In this document: positions 37,506 to 53,206 of the stretch, one piece after another
Layout: every line of letters begins with the position of its first letter
How positions within the stretch are numbered: position 1 is the first letter of the stretch
Assembly (NCBI RefSeq): GCF_004795835.1
Contig: NZ_CP039249.1
Span: forward strand, 1,546,501-1,610,500
From: Sphingomonas sp. PAMC26645
GTDB taxonomy: Bacteria; Pseudomonadota; Alphaproteobacteria; Sphingomonadales; Sphingomonadaceae
Reading direction: 5' to 3'
Length of the DNA stretch: 64,000 nt
The notes under the pieces: generated by a model
What the model was told of the DNA's origin: nothing
The model's database searches: none
What the model saw: the letters and a program-made list of their open reading frames with translations, nothing else
Translations under genes and position numbers: made by a program

Positions 37506-38738
37506 ATGCTCTACGATGCCTATGAATTCCAGCGTTCGATGATGGCCGGCGCCAGCAAGATGGCGAGCTTCGGCGCGGATATGCTCAACAATCCGGCAAA
37601 CCCGTTCGCCTATTTGGGCGGCGGCACGGTGGTTGCCTCGGCGCTCGAAGTGTTCGCACACGCGAATGCGACTCGCGGCAAACCGGCGTTCGGGCTCGAC
37701 ACGACGACGATCGACGGCCGCGAGGTCGCGGTCCGCGAGGAGATCGTGCTGCGGAAGGACTTCGGGCAGCTGAAGCGCTTCGTGCGCGAGGGTGTGGAGG
37801 GCGGTCCGAAGCTGCTGATCGTCGCGCCGATGTCGGGGCATTACGCGACCTTGCTGCGCGGAACGGTCGAGCGGATGCTGCCGTTCGCCGACGTCTACAT
37901 CACCGACTGGCGAGACGCGCGCAGCGTGCCGCTGTCGGCTGGGCGGTTCGATCTCGACGATTACATCGATTATCTGATCGAATATTTGGAGACGATCGGC
38001 GCGAATGAGGGGCAGGGGGGCACGCACATGCTCGCGGTCTGCCAACCATCGGTGCCGTGTTACGCCGCGGTTGCGCTGATGAGCGCAGACAAGAACCCGT
38101 GCCGTCCGAAGACGCTGACGATGATGGGTGGTCCCGTCGATACGCGCGAGGCACCGACCGCGGTGAACACGCTGGCGACCGAGCGGCCGCATGCGTGGTT
38201 CGAGCAGAACGTCATCGCGACCGTGCCGGGCAATTATCCGGGTGCGGGGCGGAAGGTGTATCCCGGCTTCCTGCAGCTTGCCGGATTCATGTCGATGAAT
38301 CTGGGCAACCACATGGTCTCGCATTGGGAGATGTATAAACATCTCGTCCAGGGTGATGGCGAGAGCGCGTCACAGAGCCAGGATTTCTACGAGGAATATC
38401 GCTCGGTCTGCGACATGACCGCGGAATTCTATCTCCAGACGATCGATGTGGTATTCCAGAACCATGCGCTGCCGCGGGGGATCATGACGCATCGCGGCCG
38501 GCTGGTCGATCCGGCGGCGATCACCGATATCGGTCTGCTCGCGGTCGAGGGCGAACGTGACGATATCTCGGGCTTGGGGCAGACCAAGGCTGCGTTGACG
38601 CTGGCAACCGCGCTACCCGACGAGAAGAAGCGCTATCTGATGGCGGAAGGGGCCGGTCATTACGGCATCTTCAACGGCTCGCGCTGGCGGGACAAAATCG
38701 CGCCCGTGGTGGAAGAGTTCATCACCGCGAACGGGTAA
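37506..38738 (+). CDS. phaZ: Intracellular polyhydroxyalkanoate depolymerase
   Basis: Alpha/beta-hydrolase degrading stored poly(3-hydroxybutyrate). The 410 residues begin MLYDAYEFQRSMM, the usual start of intracellular PhaZ. In this family the nucleophile is a cysteine rather than serine; Cys179 in VCQPSVPCY is the likely one. The partner residues would be an Asp in the GERDD region and His in GAGHYGIF. The ATG is preceded by GAGAGG. A long upstream in-frame extension overlaps the divergent ABC gene and is rejected. Confidence 0.9.
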   Translation: MLYDAYEFQRSMMAGASKMASFGADMLNNPANPFAYLGGGTVVASALEVFAHANATRGKPAFGLDTTTIDGREVAVREEIVLRKDFGQLKRFVREGVEGGPKLLIVAPMSGHYATLLRGTVERMLPFADVYITDWRDARSVPLSAGRFDLDDYIDYLIEYLETIGANEGQGGTHMLAVCQPSVPCYAAVALMSADKNPCRPKTLTMMGGPVDTREAPTAVNTLATERPHAWFEQNVIATVPGNYPGAGRKVYPGFLQLAGFMSMNLGNHMVSHWEMYKHLVQGDGESASQSQDFYEEYRSVCDMTAEFYLQTIDVVFQNHALPRGIMTHRGRLVDPAAITDIGLLAVEGERDDISGLGQTKAALTLATALPDEKKRYLMAEGAGHYGIFNGSRWRDKIAPVVEEFITANG

Positions 38739-38777: not shown

Positions 38778-39260
38778 TCAGGCGATCGAGTTGACCACCG
38801 CGTGGCTGCTCGACTCGTCCGAATGGATCGTGCCGCCGAACAGCATCTTGAGGCGGCCGCCGATCGAGATGTCGGTTTCCCACAGCTCGGCGCTGTCGAT
38901 GTCGAAGCGCAGCAGCGTCAGGTTCGGGTCTTCCTTGCCGCCCGGAAACCATGCCTCGACCTGGTTGTTCCAGAGCTTGTCGATCTGCGTGCGGTCGTTC
39001 GACGTCGAGACGTCGCCGGCCATGCACGCGAAGAAATCATGGCCCTTGCCGACGAACTGCGCCATCGCCGCGCCGCCCTTGGCGATACGGTTGTCGCGAC
39101 CGGCGAAGAAGAACAGCGTGTTGGGCTGATCGTCGTCGATCTGCGCAGTCATCGGCTCCGAATGCTCACCATCGTTAAGGCCGATCATCACGAACGGGCT
39201 CGACTTCAGCTTCTCGATGAACTTCGCTGCGACTTCCTGCGGGGTATCCTTGTCGGCCAT
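38778..39260 (-). CDS. Pyridoxamine 5'-phosphate oxidase-like general stress protein
   Basis: 160 residues of the split-barrel flavin-binding fold. Recognisable blocks are FVMIGLNDGEHSEPMTAQ, TLFFFAGRDNRIA, and VEAWFPGGKEDPNLTLLRFD (in pieces), which match the bacterial general stress protein 26-like group. These bind FMN/FAD; a catalytic role is not established. The start is the second of two nearby ATGs because AGGAG is 7 bases before it and touches the first. Ends in its own terminator. Confidence 0.85.
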   Translation of the reverse strand: MADKDTPQEVAAKFIEKLKSSPFVMIGLNDGEHSEPMTAQIDDDQPNTLFFFAGRDNRIAKGGAAMAQFVGKGHDFFACMAGDVSTSNDRTQIDKLWNNQVEAWFPGGKEDPNLTLLRFDIDSAELWETDISIGGRLKMLFGGTIHSDESSSHAVVNSIA

Positions 39261-39490
39261 CGTCATTCTCCTATTGGCTTGGATTGCCACTGAGAACGGG
39301 TGGGGCGGGGGTTGGTTGCGCAGGATCTGCGGTCGGCACACGCGCTGTTGCTGGATAAAACCGTGGCCAACGCGCCATGTCGACGATTGCTGCGGTTCTG
39401 CAGCACCACGAAAAATACGGTGAATGCGTTTTGCCGATCCATGCCTCAAACAGGATTTGGTGAGGCGCATCTTACTGCTATTGCAGGACT

Positions 39491-40531
39491 ATGGAGAGCA
39501 TTCATCCCGCCGCAACGGACGTTCGCGTCGAAGAGCGCGCCGTCGTCGACGCTCAGACCTTCGCTGCCGAAGTGGCGGGGCGCGCTACTCCGGTGGTGTT
39601 GCGCGGGCAGGTTGCCCACTGGGCTAGCGTGCGGGCGGCGGAAGGTGGCGTTGACGCGACCGCAACGTATCTGGCCGGCCTCGGTGATGGCGGCAAGCCG
39701 ATGGACGTGCTGATCGGCGGTCCCGAATTCGGTGGCCGCTTCTTCTATCGCGGCGATAATCTGGAAGGCTTCAACTTTCACCGCGAGAAGGCCCCCTTGG
39801 CGGTCTTGCTGAGCGAATTGTTGCGACTGTCCAGCGTGCCCGAGGAGAAGCGGCATTTCCTGTATGCCAACGCGGCAACCGCGCCTGAGCATTTACCGGG
39901 ATGGTTGGCAGCCAATCCGATCAACCTGCCGCTGGGCGGAGCGACGCCAAGGCTGTGGATCGGCAACGGATCGCAGACCGCGACACATTATGACGGCTCG
40001 ACGAACCTTGCCTGCGTAGTCGCCGGCCGGCGCCGCTTCACGCTGTTCCCGCCGGACGAGGTCGGCAATCTGTATATCGGGCCACTCGACCGGACGCTGG
40101 CCGGCCCGCCGTCCAGCATGGTCGATCCGTTGGCGCCGGACCTGAACCAGTTTCCGCGATATGCCGAGGCGCTGCGTCACGCACTGGTCGCCGATTTAGG
40201 GCCGGGTGATGCGTTGTTCATTCCGGCGATCTGGTGGCATCACGTCCAGGCGTTCGGGACGCTCAATGTGTTGTGCAATTACTGGTGGGCGTTCGACCCG
40301 ACGGTTTCGGCGTTTCACGCGATGGTCCATGCGATGATGGCGGTGCGCGATCGTCCACCGGCGGAGAAGGCGGGGTGGCGGGCTTGGTTCGAGCATTATG
40401 TGTTCGGCGACGATGCGGCCGCGGCTGGCGATCATTTGCCCACGGCAGCGCGTGGCGTGCTCGGGCCAGCCTCGCCAGATCGTACCGAGCGGATCCGCGG
40501 CTATCTGTTGAAAGCGCTACAGCGACGCTGA
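39491..40531 (+). CDS. JmjC-like cupin (Fe(II)/2-oxoglutarate oxygenase fold) protein
   Basis: 346 residues. The metal triad of the cupin_8/JmjC fold is visible: HxD in ATHYDGSTNL (about 166-175) and the distal histidine in PAIWWHHVQAFG (about 244-255). The RRRFTLFPP block between them is also typical. Such proteins recur beside tryptophan-halogenase-like genes and TonB receptors in Caulobacterales, Sphingomonadales and xanthomonads; a hydroxylase role there is inferred only. AGGA lies shortly before the ATG. It converges on the halogenase operon. Confidence 0.88.
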   Translation: MESIHPAATDVRVEERAVVDAQTFAAEVAGRATPVVLRGQVAHWASVRAAEGGVDATATYLAGLGDGGKPMDVLIGGPEFGGRFFYRGDNLEGFNFHREKAPLAVLLSELLRLSSVPEEKRHFLYANAATAPEHLPGWLAANPINLPLGGATPRLWIGNGSQTATHYDGSTNLACVVAGRRRFTLFPPDEVGNLYIGPLDRTLAGPPSSMVDPLAPDLNQFPRYAEALRHALVADLGPGDALFIPAIWWHHVQAFGTLNVLCNYWWAFDPTVSAFHAMVHAMMAVRDRPPAEKAGWRAWFEHYVFGDDAAAAGDHLPTAARGVLGPASPDRTERIRGYLLKALQRR

Positions 40532-40724: not shown

Positions 40725-42212
40725 TCACGCCAACCTGGCGAGCGCATGGGCATGGGATGGCATATGCGTTAGTGAAGTAGCGACTACGCGTTCGACCTGA
40801 GCCAACCGATTGGCGGCGGTCTCGATCGGTATGCCGTCGCAGATCGGATCGTAGCCTGAGACGGGGGCGTTCTGTCCGGTCAACACAGCAAGCCAGCTAG
40901 TTTCATTGAACAGTTCGTCGGCCTCTCGAAAGATGCGGCCGCCGGCGCGAAACAATGCGAGCTTTTCGGCCAGGCCTTCAGGGATCGCTGCAGCAGCGCG
41001 GTCGCGCCAAAACGGTTCTGCGCGCGCATTCAAATGGTAATGTGCGACGAGGAAGTCTCGGATGCGAGTATATTCCGCGGTCATGATGCGGTTGTAGCGC
41101 TCGACCACTGCCGGGGCGGGAGGGGCGCCCGTCGGCAACATCCTGAGCAGATGCTGCAATCCGCTTTGCACCAGATGAATGCTGGTGGATTCAAGCGGCT
41201 CCATGAACCCCGCCGCCAGACCAAGAGCGATGCAATTACCGACCCAGAAGCAGTTGCGGTGGCCCGTTGCGAAGCGGATCACGCGAGGTTCGGCAAGGGT
41301 CTCTCCTTCCACCCCGGCCAGCAACGTTGCGGTCGCCTCGTCCTCGCTCATGTTGCGGCTGGAAAAGACATGGCCGTTGCCGGTGCGGTGCTGCAGCGGG
41401 ATACGCCAGCGCCAGCCGGCGCGTTCGGCGATCGCCCGAGTGAGCGGCAGCGGTGCGGCGTCGGCAACCGAAGCCACTGCGACGGCACGGTCGCAGGGCA
41501 GCCATTCGGACCAGTCGGTCCATCCTGCCTCCATTGCGCCTTCGATCAAAAGTGCGCGAAAGCCGGAGCAGTCGAGGAACAGGTCGCCGGCGATGCGGCT
41601 GCCATCGGCGAGATGTACAGCCGCGATACCCGCTGGGCCGCGCTCGACGCGTTTGACCAGCCCTTCATGGCGGACGACGCCGTATGCCTCGGCCTGCACG
41701 CGCAAGAACGCGGCGTAGCGCCCGGCGTCGAAATGATAGGCATAGCCGATCCGCGACAGGGGTGAGTTTCCATTCGCGATCGGCCGCGAGAAACGGCCGG
41801 CCTCCGCTGCGCATGCCTCAAGCGAATAGGCGCCCAGTGGTTCTGCCGCGCCTGCCTGGCGCACACGCAGCCATTGCGCGGCGAACGGCACGCCGGCGAT
41901 GTCGGTACCGATCTGGCCAAACGGATGGACATAGGACTCGCCTGGACGCGTCCAGCCTTCGAAGCGGATGCCGAGCTTGTAGCTGCCGCCGGTCGCGCGC
42001 AGGAAGGCGTCCTCGTCGATCCCGAGCATCGCGTGGAAGGTACGGATCGGGGGAATCGTCGCTTCGCCGACGCCGACCGTGGGGATATCGTCCGACTCGA
42101 TCAGCGTCACGCGCGTGCCGGCGGGGCCGAGCAGCCGCCCGAACGCGACCGCCGCCATCCAGCCCGCGGTACCGCCACCGACAATCGTTACAGATCGTAG
42201 AGCGTCGGTCAT
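40725..42212 (-). CDS. Flavin-dependent tryptophan halogenase family protein 1 (last in operon)
   Basis: 495 residues. The FADH2-binding GGGTAGWMAA is at about residues 11-20. The lysine that handles hypohalous acid in characterised members is in SYKLGIRF (about residue 78). The halogenase motif WxWxIP is present as WRWRIP with LQHRTGNGHV following. The conserved glutamate lies in EPLESTSIH. It therefore keeps the full catalytic set. The substrate is unknown; free tryptophan is only one possibility. Its ATG overlaps the stop of the preceding halogenase (ATGA). No flavin reductase gene lies nearby. Confidence 0.92.
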   Translation of the reverse strand: MTDALRSVTIVGGGTAGWMAAVAFGRLLGPAGTRVTLIESDDIPTVGVGEATIPPIRTFHAMLGIDEDAFLRATGGSYKLGIRFEGWTRPGESYVHPFGQIGTDIAGVPFAAQWLRVRQAGAAEPLGAYSLEACAAEAGRFSRPIANGNSPLSRIGYAYHFDAGRYAAFLRVQAEAYGVVRHEGLVKRVERGPAGIAAVHLADGSRIAGDLFLDCSGFRALLIEGAMEAGWTDWSEWLPCDRAVAVASVADAAPLPLTRAIAERAGWRWRIPLQHRTGNGHVFSSRNMSEDEATATLLAGVEGETLAEPRVIRFATGHRNCFWVGNCIALGLAAGFMEPLESTSIHLVQSGLQHLLRMLPTGAPPAPAVVERYNRIMTAEYTRIRDFLVAHYHLNARAEPFWRDRAAAAIPEGLAEKLALFRAGGRIFREADELFNETSWLAVLTGQNAPVSGYDPICDGIPIETAANRLAQVERVVATSLTHMPSHAHALARLA

Positions 42213-43726
42213 GCGCGCACGCGCGTCGGGCTGGTACGGGCGAGATAGTCTTCGTGACGCGGCATCCGGGCTGCGGCGTCGGCGAACATCGCGCGCAAAC
42301 GATCAAACCGGGCGTCCACGTCCCGGGCGTCGACCGCATCGGCGAGGCGGTCCCAGCCCTCGGGGACGATGCCCTGACCCAGCAACACTGCGACCCAACT
42401 TGCTTCGGCGAACAGATCGTCCTCCCATCGGAACAGCCGTCCACGACGTCGCCACAGGGCAATCTTCTCGGCGATACTATCGGGGATCGCCCGCGCGCCG
42501 GCCTCGCGCCAGAACGGAGAGTCGGTCCGGCGGGTCGCATGATAGTGAAGCACGAGGAAGTCGCGAACCTGGTCAAACTGCGTTTCGGCAAGACGATTAT
42601 AGGTATCGATCTCGACCGGCGAGAAACCTTGGTCGGGGAACAACGCCAGCAGCTTCGAGATGCCGGTCTGCACCATGTGGATACTGGTCGATTCGAGCGG
42701 CTCGGTGAAGCCGGAGGCTAGGCCGAGTGCGACGACGTTGCCTATCCATTGTTTTCGCCGCCGCCCGGCTGTGAAGCGAAGAACGCGAGGGTCGGCAAGC
42801 GGTGGCCCATCTACACCGTCGAGCAAGGTCGCGGCGGCCTCGTCGTCCGAGCAATGAGCGCTGCTGTAGACATAGCCGTTGCCGGTGCGGTGTTGCAGCG
42901 GAATGCGCCATTGCCAGCCGCTCGCTTGCGCGGTCGAGCGGGTGTACGGCGCGATCGCGGTGCCGATATTCGCGGTCGGCATCGCAACGGCCCGATCGCA
43001 GGGCAACCAGCGCGTCCAGTCCTCGTAACCGGCACCGAGTGCCTGCTCGATCAACAACCCGCGGAAGCCGGAGCAGTCGAGGAACAGGTCGCCTTCGATC
43101 CGGCGGTCGCCGGCGAGCGTGACATAACGGACGTGCCCGGTATCGCCGTCGAGCGCGACATCGCCGATCTCGCCCCCGATCCTGGTGACGCCGTCGCGTT
43201 CCGCACGACCTCGCAGGAATCGGGCATAAAGGCCGGCGTCGAAATGATAGGCATGCGCCATCTGTGACAATATGGATGCCGGGTCGGGCGAGGGGGGGGC
43301 GAACCGCCCGGCCCGCGCGGCGACCGCGCAGAGCGAGTAGGCGTCGATGTCCTCGACCACGCCTGCTGCTCGCCGACGTCGCCAATGTTGGTGGAAGCGG
43401 ACGCCCTCGATATCGAATCCGAACCCGCCAAACGGGTGGAGATAGCGTTCGCCGATCGCACCCCAGTCGACGAACTCGATGCCGAGCTTGAAGCTGCCCG
43501 CCGTTGCCGCCAGAAACGCCGCTTCGTCGATGCCGAGCATCGCGTTGAAGGCTCGGATCGGCGGGATCGTTGCTTCGCCGACACCGACGGTGCCGATCGT
43601 ATCGGACTCGATCAGGGTCACGCTGGCCCCCGTCGGGATCAGTCGCGCCAGCGCGGCGGCCGCCATCCAGCCCGCGGTGCCGCCGCCGACGATGACGATG
43701 CGACGGACAGGTGAACCCAGCGTCAT
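42209..43726 (-). CDS. Flavin-dependent tryptophan halogenase family protein 2
   Basis: 505 residues. The set is complete: GGGTAGWMAAAAL near the N-terminus, lysine in SFKLGIEF (about residue 82), WQWRIP with LQHRTGNGYV, and EPLESTSIHMV. It is clearly paralogous to members 1 and 4, as the blocks DCSGFRGLLIE and YHFDAGLYARFL also match. Overlaps its neighbours by 4 bases on each side, so the operon is tightly coupled. Confidence 0.92.
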   Translation of the reverse strand: MTLGSPVRRIVIVGGGTAGWMAAAALARLIPTGASVTLIESDTIGTVGVGEATIPPIRAFNAMLGIDEAAFLAATAGSFKLGIEFVDWGAIGERYLHPFGGFGFDIEGVRFHQHWRRRRAAGVVEDIDAYSLCAVAARAGRFAPPSPDPASILSQMAHAYHFDAGLYARFLRGRAERDGVTRIGGEIGDVALDGDTGHVRYVTLAGDRRIEGDLFLDCSGFRGLLIEQALGAGYEDWTRWLPCDRAVAMPTANIGTAIAPYTRSTAQASGWQWRIPLQHRTGNGYVYSSAHCSDDEAAATLLDGVDGPPLADPRVLRFTAGRRRKQWIGNVVALGLASGFTEPLESTSIHMVQTGISKLLALFPDQGFSPVEIDTYNRLAETQFDQVRDFLVLHYHATRRTDSPFWREAGARAIPDSIAEKIALWRRRGRLFRWEDDLFAEASWVAVLLGQGIVPEGWDRLADAVDARDVDARFDRLRAMFADAAARMPRHEDYLARTSPTRVRA

Positions 43727-45123
43727 GCAGCAGCCAGTTCGGCCATGGCGTGCGCGTAGGGCGGAAGCGCTCGGACCTGCGCGATGATCCGCGCGCGATG
43801 ATCGGCGAAATGCTGCTGGATCGTTGCCAGGGGTAGCGCATCGGCGCGCGCGTCGTACCGCCGTGGCACGAGACCCATCGCGTCGAACATTGCGGCCCAG
43901 TCCTCCTCTTCGAACGGTTCGTCATCGAACATCGGCAGACGTCCGCGTGCGGCAAACAGGGTGCGTTTCGCCTCGACGGCATCGGGAAGCATCGTGCCGC
44001 CGGGCTCGTCTCTGGATGCACCCACGCCACGGCCTGCGGCCTTTTGCGCGATGACGAAGTTGCGGGCGCCCGTCATGGCGTTTGCCGTAAATCGATTGAA
44101 CGCCTTGGCTTCGACCGGCGCTCGGCGTTCCGCGGGCCAAAGCTGTATGAGCTGCGCGAGCGACCGCAACAGCACCGTCAGCGCGGTCGGGTGCAATGGC
44201 TCGATAAGCCCCGCAGCGGCGCCCAGGGCAATGCAGTTGCCGCGCCAAGCCTCAATGCGGCGACCGGCGCGGAACGGCGTGCCCTCGCCACCCGCGGTGC
44301 AGGTCAAACGCACGTCGGCGCCACCGAGCGGCCAGGTTGCGGTCCAGCCCGAACCCTGCGCATCGACTTGCGTATAGGGTGGCGGTGCGCCCGTTGCCGA
44401 CAGCGTTTGCGTATGCATTCGGTCACACGGCAGCCAAGCAGACCAGTCCTCGAATGCCGGCGCCGTCCAGCTCGCGATGCGCGCGCTGCTGCCGGAACAG
44501 TCCAGCACGAGCAGCGGTGCGATAGAGGTACTGTCCGTCAATTTCAGTATCTCGACGATGCCGTTCGCATCGATCCGTGCGTCGGCAAACGATGCGTTCG
44601 CGCAAGACGCACCGAAGTTCATCGCGGCCGCGCGTAGCACCGCAGTGTAGCTTTCGACCGGCAGATGCAACGCATGCGCGATCGGGGCTTCGAGAGCGAA
44701 CCGGCCGGACTGTGCGGCAACGGCAGACAGGGCATAGTCGGCCAGACGGACATGGATCCCGTCCTTGCGCAGCCGGCCGGCAAGCTGGTGGAACGCAATA
44801 CCCTGAAGCGGCGCGCCCGTTTCGCCGTACGACAGGAACGCTGCGGCACCGTCCTTGCGCCAGCCACCGAACGCGACCCCGAGCGCATGGCCTCCGCCGG
44901 TTGCGCGGACAAGCGCCGTCGGCTCGATACCGAGATCGGCATGAAACCCGCCGAGCGCCGGCGGCACCGTGATTACCGGTGCAAAATCCCCCAGTCCGTC
45001 GCCAGTCGTGCCATGGTCGATCACGACGACATGATAGGCGTCACGAGGCAGGCGACGCGCGAGCGCGGCCGCGGCCATCCAGCCGCACAGGTTCGCGCCG
45101 AGAATTGCGACGACCCGGCTCAT
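43723..45123 (-). CDS. Degenerate tryptophan-halogenase family paralogue 3, probably not a halogenase
   Basis: 466 residues. Overall alignment with the neighbours is clear (CGWMAAAALARR at the N-terminus, a Cys-Ser-Gly block VLDCSGSSARIASW, EDWSAWLPCDRM, GLIEPLHPTALTVLL). Yet the key residues are gone. GGGTAG reads GANLCG, the lysine position KLGIEF reads ALGVAF, WxWxIP reads WTATWP, and the glutamate in EPLEST reads EPLHPT. The frame is intact and overlaps both neighbours by 4 bases, so it is retained rather than decayed. A binding or scaffolding role, or an FAD-dependent activity other than halogenation, is possible. Start MSRVVAILG at the ATGA overlap. Confidence 0.85.
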   Translation of the reverse strand: MSRVVAILGANLCGWMAAAALARRLPRDAYHVVVIDHGTTGDGLGDFAPVITVPPALGGFHADLGIEPTALVRATGGGHALGVAFGGWRKDGAAAFLSYGETGAPLQGIAFHQLAGRLRKDGIHVRLADYALSAVAAQSGRFALEAPIAHALHLPVESYTAVLRAAAMNFGASCANASFADARIDANGIVEILKLTDSTSIAPLLVLDCSGSSARIASWTAPAFEDWSAWLPCDRMHTQTLSATGAPPPYTQVDAQGSGWTATWPLGGADVRLTCTAGGEGTPFRAGRRIEAWRGNCIALGAAAGLIEPLHPTALTVLLRSLAQLIQLWPAERRAPVEAKAFNRFTANAMTGARNFVIAQKAAGRGVGASRDEPGGTMLPDAVEAKRTLFAARGRLPMFDDEPFEEEDWAAMFDAMGLVPRRYDARADALPLATIQQHFADHRARIIAQVRALPPYAHAMAELAAA

Positions 45124-46622
45124 GCCGCGGCCTTGATCCGCGCGATATAGTCTTCGTGCAAGGGCATTGTCTTGGCTGCACTCGCACAGGCGGCGGCGAC
45201 CCTGGTGACGTGAGCTCGCGAAGTCGCTGACGGAATATCCGCAATCAGCGGATTCACGCGGTCCGGCATGATGCGTTGGCCGTAATAGACGGCAAGCCAA
45301 CTCGCCGGCAGGAACATGCCCTCTCGATAGGATGCGACGATGCCCCGCTCGCGGAATTCGGCGATCTTCTCGGTCAGCGACGAGGGCAGGGTCATGGTTC
45401 GCATGTAGCGCCAGAACGGCGTGTCGTCGCGTTCCGTGGCACAGTAGTGCAGCACCAGGAAGTCACGGACCCGGTCATATTCGAGCGCCATCGCGCGGTT
45501 GAACTCCGCCGCATCGGCTGGGTCGAACACGCCACCGGATGGAAACAGTTCGATGAGCTTGCCGATCGCGAGCTGGATCAGGTGGATGCTGGTCGATTCA
45601 AGTGGTTCGAGAAACCCCGCGGACAAGCCGATCGCGACGCAGTTCCCAACCCATTGCCGATCTCGCCGGCCCGTACGAAAGCGCAGCATGCGCGGTTCGG
45701 CAAGCGCCTCGCCCTCCAGGTTATTCATCAACACCGCACGTGCGGTTTCCGGGTCGGTGAACCGTGTCGAGAAGACATGGCCATTCCCCGTTCGATGCTG
45801 CAGCGGGATGCGCCATTGCCATCCGGCTTCACGCGCGGTTGCCCGGGTGTACGGCGTCAATGCGCCGGCATTGGCGGTGGGAACGGCCCATGCGGCATCG
45901 CACGGCAACCAGTGTGACCAATCCTCAGATTTAATCTTGAGTGCGCCATCGATCAGGAGTGCGCGAAAGCCGGAGCAGTCGATGAACAGGTCACCCGCGA
46001 TCCTCCGACCATCGGCAAGGCGAACGGCGTCTATACCGCCTGCGCTTTGCTCGACCGCATCGACGCGTCCTTCGATCCGGACGACGCCGCGCGCTTCGGC
46101 ATAGTCGCGCAGATAGGCCGCGTAGAGCGTCGCATCGAACTGATAGGCGTAGGAATAGGTCGACCCGATCGAGCGCGGGTCCTCGAGCGGCGGCGTAAAA
46201 CGATTTTCGCGCGCGGCGACGATCGGCAGCGAGCAGTCTTCCAAAGCCGGTAGGCCGTCAGTGCCACCGCGCGTTGCGTGTGCCCAATGCTGGTGGAAAG
46301 GCAGGCCATCGACGTCGTGCCCAAAATCGCCAAAGGGATGGATGTAGCTGTCGCCGACACGGCCCCAATCGCGAAATTCGATGCCAAGCTTGAACGTCGC
46401 ATTTGTACGACGAATAAAGTCGGCTTCGTCGATACCCAATCTTTGATTAAAGAATCGGATGTGAGGAACCGTCGCTTCGCCGACGCCGACTGTGCCGATC
46501 TCCTCAGACTCGATCAGGGTTACGTCGGCAAGCCGGCCGGCGAAACTCATGGCCAATGTTGCCGCGGTCATCCAACCAGCGGTACCGCCACCAACGACTA
46601 CCACTTGCATCCCGGCACCCAT
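45120..46622 (-). CDS. Flavin-dependent tryptophan halogenase family protein 4 (first in operon)
   Basis: 500 residues, complete catalytic set: GGGTAGWMTAATL, lysine in TFKLGIEF, WQWRIP with LQHRTGNGHVFS, EPLESTSIHLI. The ATG at 46622 is chosen because AGG of GATGAGG is placed 8 bases upstream; a TTG two codons earlier is less likely. Being nearest the divergent promoter region shared with the TonB receptor, it heads the four-gene operon. Confidence 0.92.
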   Translation of the reverse strand: MGAGMQVVVVGGGTAGWMTAATLAMSFAGRLADVTLIESEEIGTVGVGEATVPHIRFFNQRLGIDEADFIRRTNATFKLGIEFRDWGRVGDSYIHPFGDFGHDVDGLPFHQHWAHATRGGTDGLPALEDCSLPIVAARENRFTPPLEDPRSIGSTYSYAYQFDATLYAAYLRDYAEARGVVRIEGRVDAVEQSAGGIDAVRLADGRRIAGDLFIDCSGFRALLIDGALKIKSEDWSHWLPCDAAWAVPTANAGALTPYTRATAREAGWQWRIPLQHRTGNGHVFSTRFTDPETARAVLMNNLEGEALAEPRMLRFRTGRRDRQWVGNCVAIGLSAGFLEPLESTSIHLIQLAIGKLIELFPSGGVFDPADAAEFNRAMALEYDRVRDFLVLHYCATERDDTPFWRYMRTMTLPSSLTEKIAEFRERGIVASYREGMFLPASWLAVYYGQRIMPDRVNPLIADIPSATSRAHVTRVAAACASAAKTMPLHEDYIARIKAAA

Positions 46623-46787
46623 CGCCAAACCTCATCCCCTCTGTGTTGTATCAAAGACACGACTTGCTCATTTCCGAGCGTTCTTAACCTTTTATGTAGC
46701 TGTTACATTCGGATGACGCTACCTCGCCCGGCAGATAAAGCGCGCCAAAGAATGATAGCGCTATCTATAAAGGGGATGCAGAACGTC
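46623..46787. promoter_or_regulatory. Divergent promoter region with a 12-bp LacI-operator-like palindrome
   Basis: 165 bp, AT-richer than its flanks, separates the halogenase operon from the TonB receptor gene. GATAGCGCTATC at 46754-46765 is a perfect 12-bp palindrome with central CG, the form typical of LacI-family operators. It lies 22 bp before the receptor ATG. Promoter boxes cannot be fixed by eye. Confidence 0.55.
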
Positions 46788-50382: not shown

Positions 50383-51276
50383 ATGACCGAGACCGCCGAT
50401 TACACGCCGCCGAAGATCTGGACTTGGAACAAGGAGAGCGGGGGCAGGTTCGCCAGCATCAACCGCCCGATCGCCGGCGCTACGCATGACAAGGATCTGC
50501 CGGCGGGCAAGCATCCGCTGCAGCTCTATTCGCTGGCGACGCCCAACGGGGTGAAGGTGACGGTGATGCTCGAGGAGCTACTCGCGGCTGGTCACACGGG
50601 TGCCGAGTATGACGCCTGGCTCATCAAGATCATGGACGGTGACCAGTTCGGCAGCGGCTTTGTCGAGGCCAACCCGAACTCAAAAATTCCCGCACTGGTG
50701 GATCGCAGTGGCGAAAGCCCGATCCGGGTCTTCGAGTCTGGCTCGATCCTGGTCTATCTCGCCGAGAAGTTCGGTGCGTTCCTGCCCACCGATGTCGCCA
50801 AGCGCGCCGAGGTGCTCTCGTGGCTGTTCTGGCAGATGGGGGCGGGGCCGATGCTTGGCGGCGGGTTCGGGCATTTCTACGCGTATGCGCCGGTTAAGAT
50901 CGAATATGCGATCGACCGCTTCGCGATGGAGGTGAAGCGGCAGCTCGACGTTCTCGACCGGCGCCTGGGCGAGAGCGAGTATCTTGGCGGCGACGAGTAT
51001 TCGATCGCCGACATGGCGGTGTGGCCTTGGTACGGTGCTCTGGTGAAGGGGCTGGTCTACGACGCCGCGGAGTTCCTTCAGGTAAACGACTACAAGAACG
51101 TCCTGCGCTGGACCGACCTGATCGCTGCACGGCCCGCAGTGGCGCGTGGGCGGATGGTCAACCGCGTGATGGGTGATCCTTCCAGTCAGCTCCCCGAGCG
51201 CCACGACGCTGGGGATTTCGATACGCGGACGCAGGACAGGCTCGACGCCGCAGCGGCTGACAACGCGACAGGGTGA
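50383..51276 (+). CDS. yghU: Glutathione S-transferase, YghU-type disulfide-bond oxidoreductase
   Basis: 297 residues. The N-terminal thioredoxin fold begins about residue 45 (PLQLYSLATPNGVKV) and contains NPNSKIPALVD with the cis-proline and ESGSILVYLAEKFG. The C-terminal helical domain carries YLGGDEYSIADMAVWPWYG. The N-terminal arm DYTPPKIWTWNKE is the hallmark of the YghU/YfcG-like nu-class group, which reduces disulfides with two bound glutathiones. CGGAGA precedes the ATG. Confidence 0.9.
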   Translation: MTETADYTPPKIWTWNKESGGRFASINRPIAGATHDKDLPAGKHPLQLYSLATPNGVKVTVMLEELLAAGHTGAEYDAWLIKIMDGDQFGSGFVEANPNSKIPALVDRSGESPIRVFESGSILVYLAEKFGAFLPTDVAKRAEVLSWLFWQMGAGPMLGGGFGHFYAYAPVKIEYAIDRFAMEVKRQLDVLDRRLGESEYLGGDEYSIADMAVWPWYGALVKGLVYDAAEFLQVNDYKNVLRWTDLIAARPAVARGRMVNRVMGDPSSQLPERHDAGDFDTRTQDRLDAAAADNATG

Positions 51277-51832: not shown

Positions 51833-53206
51833 TTACGCGGCGGCCTTCTTGCGCTCGGCCATTTCCTCGTTGAGCATCTCGGCCAGCAGGAAGGCGAGTT
51901 CGAGGCTCTGGCTGGCGTTGAGGCGCGGATCGCAGTGGGTGTGGTAGCGATCCGCAAGCGACTGCTCGGTCACGTCGACCGCGCCGCCGGTGCACTCCGT
52001 CACGTTCTGGCCGGTCATCTCGGCATGGATGCCGCCGGCGTGCGTGCCTTCCGCGCGGTGGACCGCGAAGAAGCCGCGGACTTCGGCGAGGATACGGTCG
52101 AACGGGCGCGTCTTGTAGCCGTTGGCGGCCTTGACGACGTTGCCGTGCATCGGGTCGCAGCTCCACACCACCGGATGGCCCTCGCGCGTGACGGCGCGGA
52201 CTAGGCGGGGCAGGTTCGCCTCGATCTTGTCGTAGCCATAGCGCGTGATCAGCGTCATCCGGCCGGGTACGCGGCCTGGGTTGAGCGTGTCGAGCATCCG
52301 CAGCAGCGCGTCGGGCTCCAGGCTCGGGCCGCACTTTATGCCGATCGGGTTGCCGATGCCGCGGAGGTATTCGACATGGCTCGATCCCTCGAACCGGGTG
52401 CGATCGCCGATCCACAGGAAATGCGCGCTGGTGTCGTACCAGTCGCCGGTCAGCGAATCCTGCCGAGTCAGCGCCTGCTCGTACTGGAGCAGCAGTGCCT
52501 CGTGGCTGGTGTAGAAATGCGTCTGCGCAAGCTGCGGCACGGTCTCGGGATCGATCCCGCACGCGGCCATGAACTCGAGCGCCTCGCCGATCCGGTCCGC
52601 GGTCTCGGCGTATTTCTTCGACCAGGGGCTGCGGCCCATGAAGTCGTGCGTCCAGCGGTGGACCTGATGCAGGTTCGCGTAGCCGCCTTGTGCAAACGCA
52701 CGCAGCAGGTTGAGCGTCGCCGCCGACTGCGAATAGGCGCGGATCATCCGCTGAGGGTCGGGCGCGCGCGATTCCGCGGTGAAGGCGATATCGTTGACGT
52801 TATCGCCGCGGTACGACGGCAGCTCGACGCCGCCGATCGTCTCGGTATCGGTCGAGCGCGGCTTGGCGAATTGACCCGCCATGCGGCCAAGCTTCACGAC
52901 GGGGAGCTTCGATGCGAAGGTCAGGACGACCGCCATCTGAAGGATGACGCGGAACGTGTCGCGGATGTTGTTGGCGCTGTGCTCCGCGAAGGACTCGGCG
53001 CAGTCGCCACCCTGGAGCAGGAACGCCTTGCCGGCTGCGACTTCGGCGAGCGACGCGGTCAGGTTGCGAGCTTCACCAGCGAAGACGAGCGGCGGGAAGG
53101 TCGCAAGCTGGTCGGTCGCGGCGGTCAGCGCTGCTGCGTCGGGATAAGTGGGGAGCTGCCGCGCTTCGTGACGTGTCCAGCTGTCGGGGGCCCAGTTCGC
53201 GGCCAT
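51833..53206 (-). CDS. Class II 3-deoxy-7-phosphoheptulonate (DAHP) synthase
   Basis: 457 residues. First enzyme of the shikimate pathway, condensing phosphoenolpyruvate and erythrose-4-phosphate. It is the plant-like type II family, as shown by [12 protein letters not shown] (about 63-74), [12 protein letters not shown] (about 107-118), RAPDPQRM and the metal-binding region WSCDPMHGN. The length fits. Many proteobacteria use only type I enzymes; the type II form is common in alphaproteobacteria. No clear ribosome binding site seen. Followed by tRNA-Glu on the same strand. Confidence 0.95.

Follow-up and report, generated by a model that had tools for sequence, protein, structure and literature searches.

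Why would an operon of flavin-dependent halogenases keep, between intact copies, a paralogue in which every catalytic motif has changed? The question is raised by a gene at 43723..45123, on the reverse strand of the window (the whole 64,000-nucleotide stretch of Sphingomonas sp. PAMC26645 DNA analysed here), whose translation, motif alignment and match to PF04820 identify its product of 466 aa as a degenerate halogenase, or pseudo-halogenase, hereafter DEG. Our preferred answer, which we consider reasonably probable, is that DEG is a conserved non-catalytic halogenase homologue that acts as partner subunit to the active halogenases around it.

The operon and the altered motifs

The operon consists of four halogenase paralogues on the reverse strand, read from 46628 down to 40725. 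An intact flavin-dependent halogenase, W1 (45120..46628), lies directly upstream of DEG and belongs to the clade whose members DEG follows; W3 (42209..43726), directly downstream, and the fourth gene, W4 (40725..42212), are intact flavin-dependent halogenases as well. A 4-nt overlap with the sequence ATGA joins the stop of W1 to the start of DEG (45120..45123, reverse strand), and another joins the stop of DEG to the start of W3 (43723..43726, reverse strand). The preliminary description had spoken of a complete third gene, translationally coupled on both sides, inside a halogenase operon. The frame is indeed complete, with 466 aa and a stop, and three intact sister halogenases in the same operon bear out the setting; DEG is third by coordinate but second in the order of transcription, and the overlaps are present at both junctions, coupled synthesis being what they suggest.

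A TonB-dependent receptor gene (TIGR01782; 46701..50156, forward strand, start approximate) diverges from the operon, and a Cupin_8 (PF13621) gene (39491..40531, forward strand) converges with it. Receptors resembling that of the window adjoin the module at most of the related loci compared, and similar Cupin_8 genes are present at many. Further out, Pfam places a PHB depolymerase C-terminus at 37509-38738, a pyridoxamine oxidase-like protein at 38778-39470, a glutathione S-transferase at 50383-51276 and a class-II DAHP synthase at 51833-53206, none of which obviously belongs to the halogenase system. The genome holds 11 halogenase-family genes (12 rows, one gene being split in two), and a second operon with the same layout is found at 844-848 kb (L049).

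Aligned with its sisters, DEG displays GANLCG for GGGTAG, APVITV for GVGEAT, HALGVAF for FKLGIEF, GWTATWP for GWQWRIP and IEPLHPTA for LEPLESTS, whereas the sisters retain all five motifs with small variants (YKLGIRF, GWRWRIP, MEPLESTS and TEPLESTS). The catalytic lysine (K79 of PrnA, K83 of BrvH) is replaced by alanine, and none of the marks of a catalytic halogenase is found in DEG, be it this lysine, the Glu-Ser pair (E346 of PrnA), WxWxIP, or GxGxxG with GVGEAT. The match to PF04820 (Trp_halogenase) reaches 232.2 bits, over a gathering cut-off of 21, against 579, 648 and 626 bits for the sisters; ten divergent DEGs score 50-276 bits and four from another class 46-154 bits. No NCBIfam model matches DEG. 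The loss of motifs is not a matter of chance, because the lysine is absent from all 30 closest database relatives (P0002-P0031), and PLHP is present in all 28 of these that cover the segment.

What, then, is left of the flavoenzyme? DEG retains the first and last glycines of GxGxxG, the acidic residue at the ribose position (D36), the D208/G211 pair and G301, so that dinucleotide binding may persist. The earlier statement that every catalytic signature is gone is thus fair for halogenation, with all five motifs changed, and too broad for the FAD fold. In the window's group of DEGs (n=76), D208 is present in 76/76, G211 in 73/76 and G301 in 76/76; G9 is kept, G14 mostly so, and position 36 is acidic (D in 32, E in 14). 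Such retention speaks for DEG being a flavoenzyme with a new chemistry (e.g. an oxidase, hydroxylase or dehalogenase) that has abandoned halide use yet still binds FAD, its substrate being what the neighbouring halogenases produce. So do 20 positions that this group conserves and intact halogenases do not, and so do the GDAA-like segments after the GN motif in many other DEGs, which seem to resemble the FAD motif of group A monooxygenases. The group's own conserved residues include R126, D400, D414, R421, R422 and H438, all but R126 being listed in the pyramid; the partly kept dinucleotide-binding motifs count against a partner role, as do R126, D400, D414 and H438, which could serve another chemistry.

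The wider family points away from a new flavoenzyme. Among 56 DEGs, a class defined by the absence of both the lysine and Glu-Ser (which within it is thus partly definitional), GVGEAT and WxWxIP are kept in none, and GxGxxG in 26; independent of the definition are the loss of GVGEAT and WxWxIP in 56/56 and the fact that the gene following W1 falls in this class. The ribose-contact glutamate is kept in only 14% of the 44 full-length DEGs, and no new polar signature of the pocket was seen to be shared by all members of the family. One shortened subfamily of 337-410 aa (337-407 aa in the middle genes of L105-L111) is devoid of most of the WxWxIP stretch; it is itself conserved (relatives P0122-P0134) and still models as a halogenase fold. 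As far as sequences can tell, the family at large favours a pseudoenzyme, with the window's group keeping part of the FAD-fold motifs, and we regard a new chemistry as a serious but unlikely explanation.

The losses are unevenly distributed over the protein. There are 105 positions at which 180 intact sequences never vary; of those in the pyramid DEGs retain 66%, against 39% of those in the WxWxIP stretch and 25% of those in the flavin loop, 12 of the 56 DEGs having been dropped as not full length (L123, for one, is cut by a contig end). The pyramid is the best-kept part by this measure, but its mean identity relative to W1 (0.62) does not exceed that of the N-terminal FAD strand (0.65), which counts against a role as partner. 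The predicted structure of DEG displays an intact fold with both box and pyramid.

Maintenance and spread of the degenerate family

Could DEG be merely a decaying paralogue, kept in the operon by chance? Its mean dN/dS is 0.178 (range 0.119-0.253; 21 pairs from seven close genomes), above the 0.100, 0.078 and 0.113 of W1, W3 and W4 in close genomes; its rate of evolution is roughly double that of the sisters, yet DEG is clearly constrained. The higher rate would suit decay and also counts against a partner subunit, but the value is far below 1. No premature stops were found in DEG among eight genomes, and a TGA flagged in G1187 lies outside the DEG frame, which is intact there at 468 aa. Throughout the genus, a match at E<=1e-60 was obtained in 37 of 295 genomes, and one of these copies is visibly broken. 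That copy, G1223, also flagged for a TGA, is by its coordinates assembly L016 (Sphingomonas sp. H160509, 1844-9895), in which the frames of the TonB-dependent receptor, DEG and W3 are broken and those of W4 and the cupin gene intact.

The L016 frames could be taken as a sign of decay, as could the S. aerolata protein P0047, which covers 44% of the query, looks frame-shifted and may be a broken copy. Because the damage extends to the receptor and W3, the L016 frames are probably assembly errors; elsewhere the frames are unbroken, and distant families repeat this gene order. DEG is under purifying selection. Decay of the group as a whole is rejected by dN/dS, stops and gene order, and survival of this paralogue by chance strikes us as very improbable indeed.

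On a tree of 129 halogenase-type proteins, comprising 60 without the lysine and Glu-Ser, 63 intact and six mixed ones counted apart, the degenerate proteins group together. The label needs three changes and the branches are long, and a single clean origin of all DEGs is not shown by this tree. The preliminary description had called the gene maintained and proposed a phylogeny of the degenerate form. Both points are upheld: the random stops and frameshifts or near-neutral dN/dS that would speak against maintenance do not appear (no premature stops in the eight genomes, 0.12-0.25 per pair), and the degenerate form is a conserved group. The halogenase paralogue that it described in one operon is real, but it is no one-off: it represents here a family that is widespread and tied to the W1 clade.

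The pair of W1 and DEG

The constancy of the upstream neighbour is seen in simple counts. In the window and other genomes, 60 of 62 DEG matches have an intact halogenase immediately upstream on the same strand, a figure that takes in near-copies of the operon in the window; the remaining two are fragments in L016. An exact 4-nt overlap with the upstream stop is present in 47 of these 60 pairs (34 ATGA, 12 GTGA, 1 TTGA), and an intact halogenase also stands directly behind DEG in 43. A tree of 180 intact halogenases, which leaves out those below 600 bits, the near-copies L010-L013 and also L016, separates 55 rows by a branch with SH-aLRT 99, and DEG comes next in 55/55; L116 provides one further DEG-upstream gene, outside this side of the tree.

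Since DEG itself had served to find some of the loci, a fairer count comes from 40 loci fetched by W1 similarity (nearly in its rank order, with loci already in the set omitted; in G278 a different one of that genome's hits was used). Here DEG is the next gene after 32/32 W1-clade genes, against 1/67 other intact halogenases. When 20 loci from two families outside the class are added, the resulting 232-row tree keeps 75/75 upstream rows on one side of a branch, with an SH-aLRT of only 54. What is inherited is a pair of neighbours, a W1-clade halogenase and DEG, whose genes usually overlap by 4 nt.

In some genera, this pair forms a unit of two genes apart from the other halogenases, directed either away from them or towards them (L061, L113, L124), which makes W1-DEG the constant core of the system. 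At L061, L065, L113, L124, L128 and L137, the two-gene unit faces two intact halogenases and a Cupin_8 gene. Distance correlations over 30 loci (0.55 for W1-DEG given W3, 0.30 for DEG-W3 given W1) favour W1-DEG modestly but carry little weight, because the pairs are not independent. A literature search, with most subscription papers outside its scope, found nothing on the W1-DEG gene pair.

The pair extends beyond the window's family to another order of the same class (L139, L140) and to two families of another class (L145, L149, L151, L153). At 19 of 20 loci picked in the latter two families the order is intact-degenerate-intact, which is not a rate, because most of the 20 were picked for hits about 1.5 kb apart or for a long frame; some loci of an earlier 20-locus set were likewise picked for two hits about 1.5 kb apart or a long frame. 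The middle genes there have GVGEAT in 0/19 and Glu-Ser in 0/19, and the lysine in 8/19, so that Glu-Ser and the flavin loop are lost more consistently than the lysine, which some of these genes keep; its retention at these eight loci counts against the partner reading. A first look at four genomes of family f195, of another class (G1473, G1484, G1490 and G1496), gave 28-31 halogenase-like candidate places per genome.

Six positions (56, 96, 163, 434, 437 and 448 in W1 numbering) are conserved in the W1 clade and rare in other intact halogenases, and three of them, Y434, G437 and Y448, fall in the same part as the pyramid. Some of these residues seem to coincide with substrate motifs already known, a hint of a single common substrate. 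By eye, conserved pyramid residues of both the DEG group and the W1 clade lie near the substrate motifs given in PMC8269204.

Does DEG need a halogenase at all? It is retained together with the TonB-dependent receptor, and conserved residues peculiar to it are found on the substrate side of its fold, as might be expected of a free-standing binder (a chaperone, a carrier of substrate or flavin, or a sensor of the TonB system) that forms no stable complex with a halogenase. Such a binder would be hard to reconcile with the association of DEG with one halogenase clade rather than with halogenases generally, nor would it account for the fusion of DEG to active halogenases in other organisms, and we find it rather improbable.

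The fusions were seen with a joined W1 and DEG query, which matched 718 proteins, the following figures being taken from the 120 listed. Among these listed matches, 19 proteins are at least 700 aa long, and 12 of them combine an N-terminal DEG with a C-terminal intact halogenase; the rest are four with two intact halves, one with Cupin_8 and an intact halogenase, and two unclear ones. The 12 listed DEG fusions occupy three separate places on the tree, none in the W1 clade, with mutual identity down to 33%. They indicate that DEG can function in one polypeptide with an active halogenase, whose type is that of the downstream gene and not of W1. As four listed fusions join two intact halogenases (P0135, P0136, P0139 and P0140, 998-1052 aa), fusion alone is no mark of DEG. 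P0200, of 868 aa, with precomputed Pfam matches to PF13621 Cupin_8 and PF04820 and an intact halogenase as its C-terminal half, is a natural fusion of two gene types that adjoin in the window. Because all 12 listed DEG fusions involve a non-W1 halogenase, DEG may bind either neighbour, and the functional complex may be W1-DEG, DEG-W3 or all three.

A proposed partner subunit and its precedents

What could a dead halogenase contribute to its neighbours? The 4-nt overlap would couple the synthesis of W1 and DEG, and DEG would then dock on W1, on the downstream halogenase or on both through its pyramid subdomain. In known halogenase dimers the pyramids pack against each other, and in AbeH this contact buries about 1610 A2 (PMC11840605). 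In the complex, DEG might shape or stabilise the active partner or hold the substrate, which for this operon is probably imported through TonB or related to the cell surface. A heteromer in which the active halogenase supplies the chemistry and DEG the surface would be the simplest account, and we infer that DEG forms a complex with a halogenase. The fuller proposal is that of a widespread heteromeric halogenase system, linked to TonB-dependent uptake, in which the inactive paralogue sits between two active halogenases (W1-DEG-W3) and gives structure or presents the substrate; we hold it to be evenly balanced between right and wrong.

The nearest precedent that we found is the pair Ams8/Ams9 of the armeniaspirol cluster. 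Ams8 has no catalytic lysine (N90) and lies beside the intact paralogue Ams9; complex prediction and deletion led to its proposal as an auxiliary heterodimer partner, and deletion of ams8 abolishes production (PMC13311259). The arrangement of a dead homologue beside an intact one, without the lysine, is the same in DEG and W1. That source discusses Ams8 in relation to PltA, whose substrate is a pyrrole bound to a carrier, and concerns one case in one cluster (PMC13311259), whereas DEG belongs to PF04820, is of BrvH type, spans orders and classes, and comes with the 4-nt overlap, fusions and a shortened subfamily. What would be new here, judging from genes and genomes, is thus the other halogenase family and the breadth of the genomic evidence. 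KS-CLF, the ketosynthase and chain length factor of type II polyketide synthases, is likewise a dead homologue tied to an active one as an adjacent gene pair (PMC13311259), and the labour would be divided between DEG and its partner as it is there and as is proposed for Ams8 and Ams9; KS-CLF differs in fold and chemistry, and its complex has been solved, whereas the W1-DEG complex is putative.

By sequence and fold, the closest solved relatives of DEG are BrvH (6frl) and Xcc4156 (6y1w), which unlike DEG are intact halogenases. The alanine of the window's DEG is the very residue of the BrvH mutant K83A, which failed to halogenate indole (PMC5945002).

Databases of the halogenase family take in many proteins that cannot be halogenases. 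If the partner role of DEG is true, the pair would correspond, among halogenases, to KS-CLF, and some proteins of these bacteria annotated as 'tryptophan halogenase' would be unable to halogenate alone. Flavin-dependent halogenases are studied singly; if BrvH-type enzymes in TonB-linked operons act as heteromers that include a dead paralogue, assays of one enzyme at a time would overlook the substrates on which they really act.
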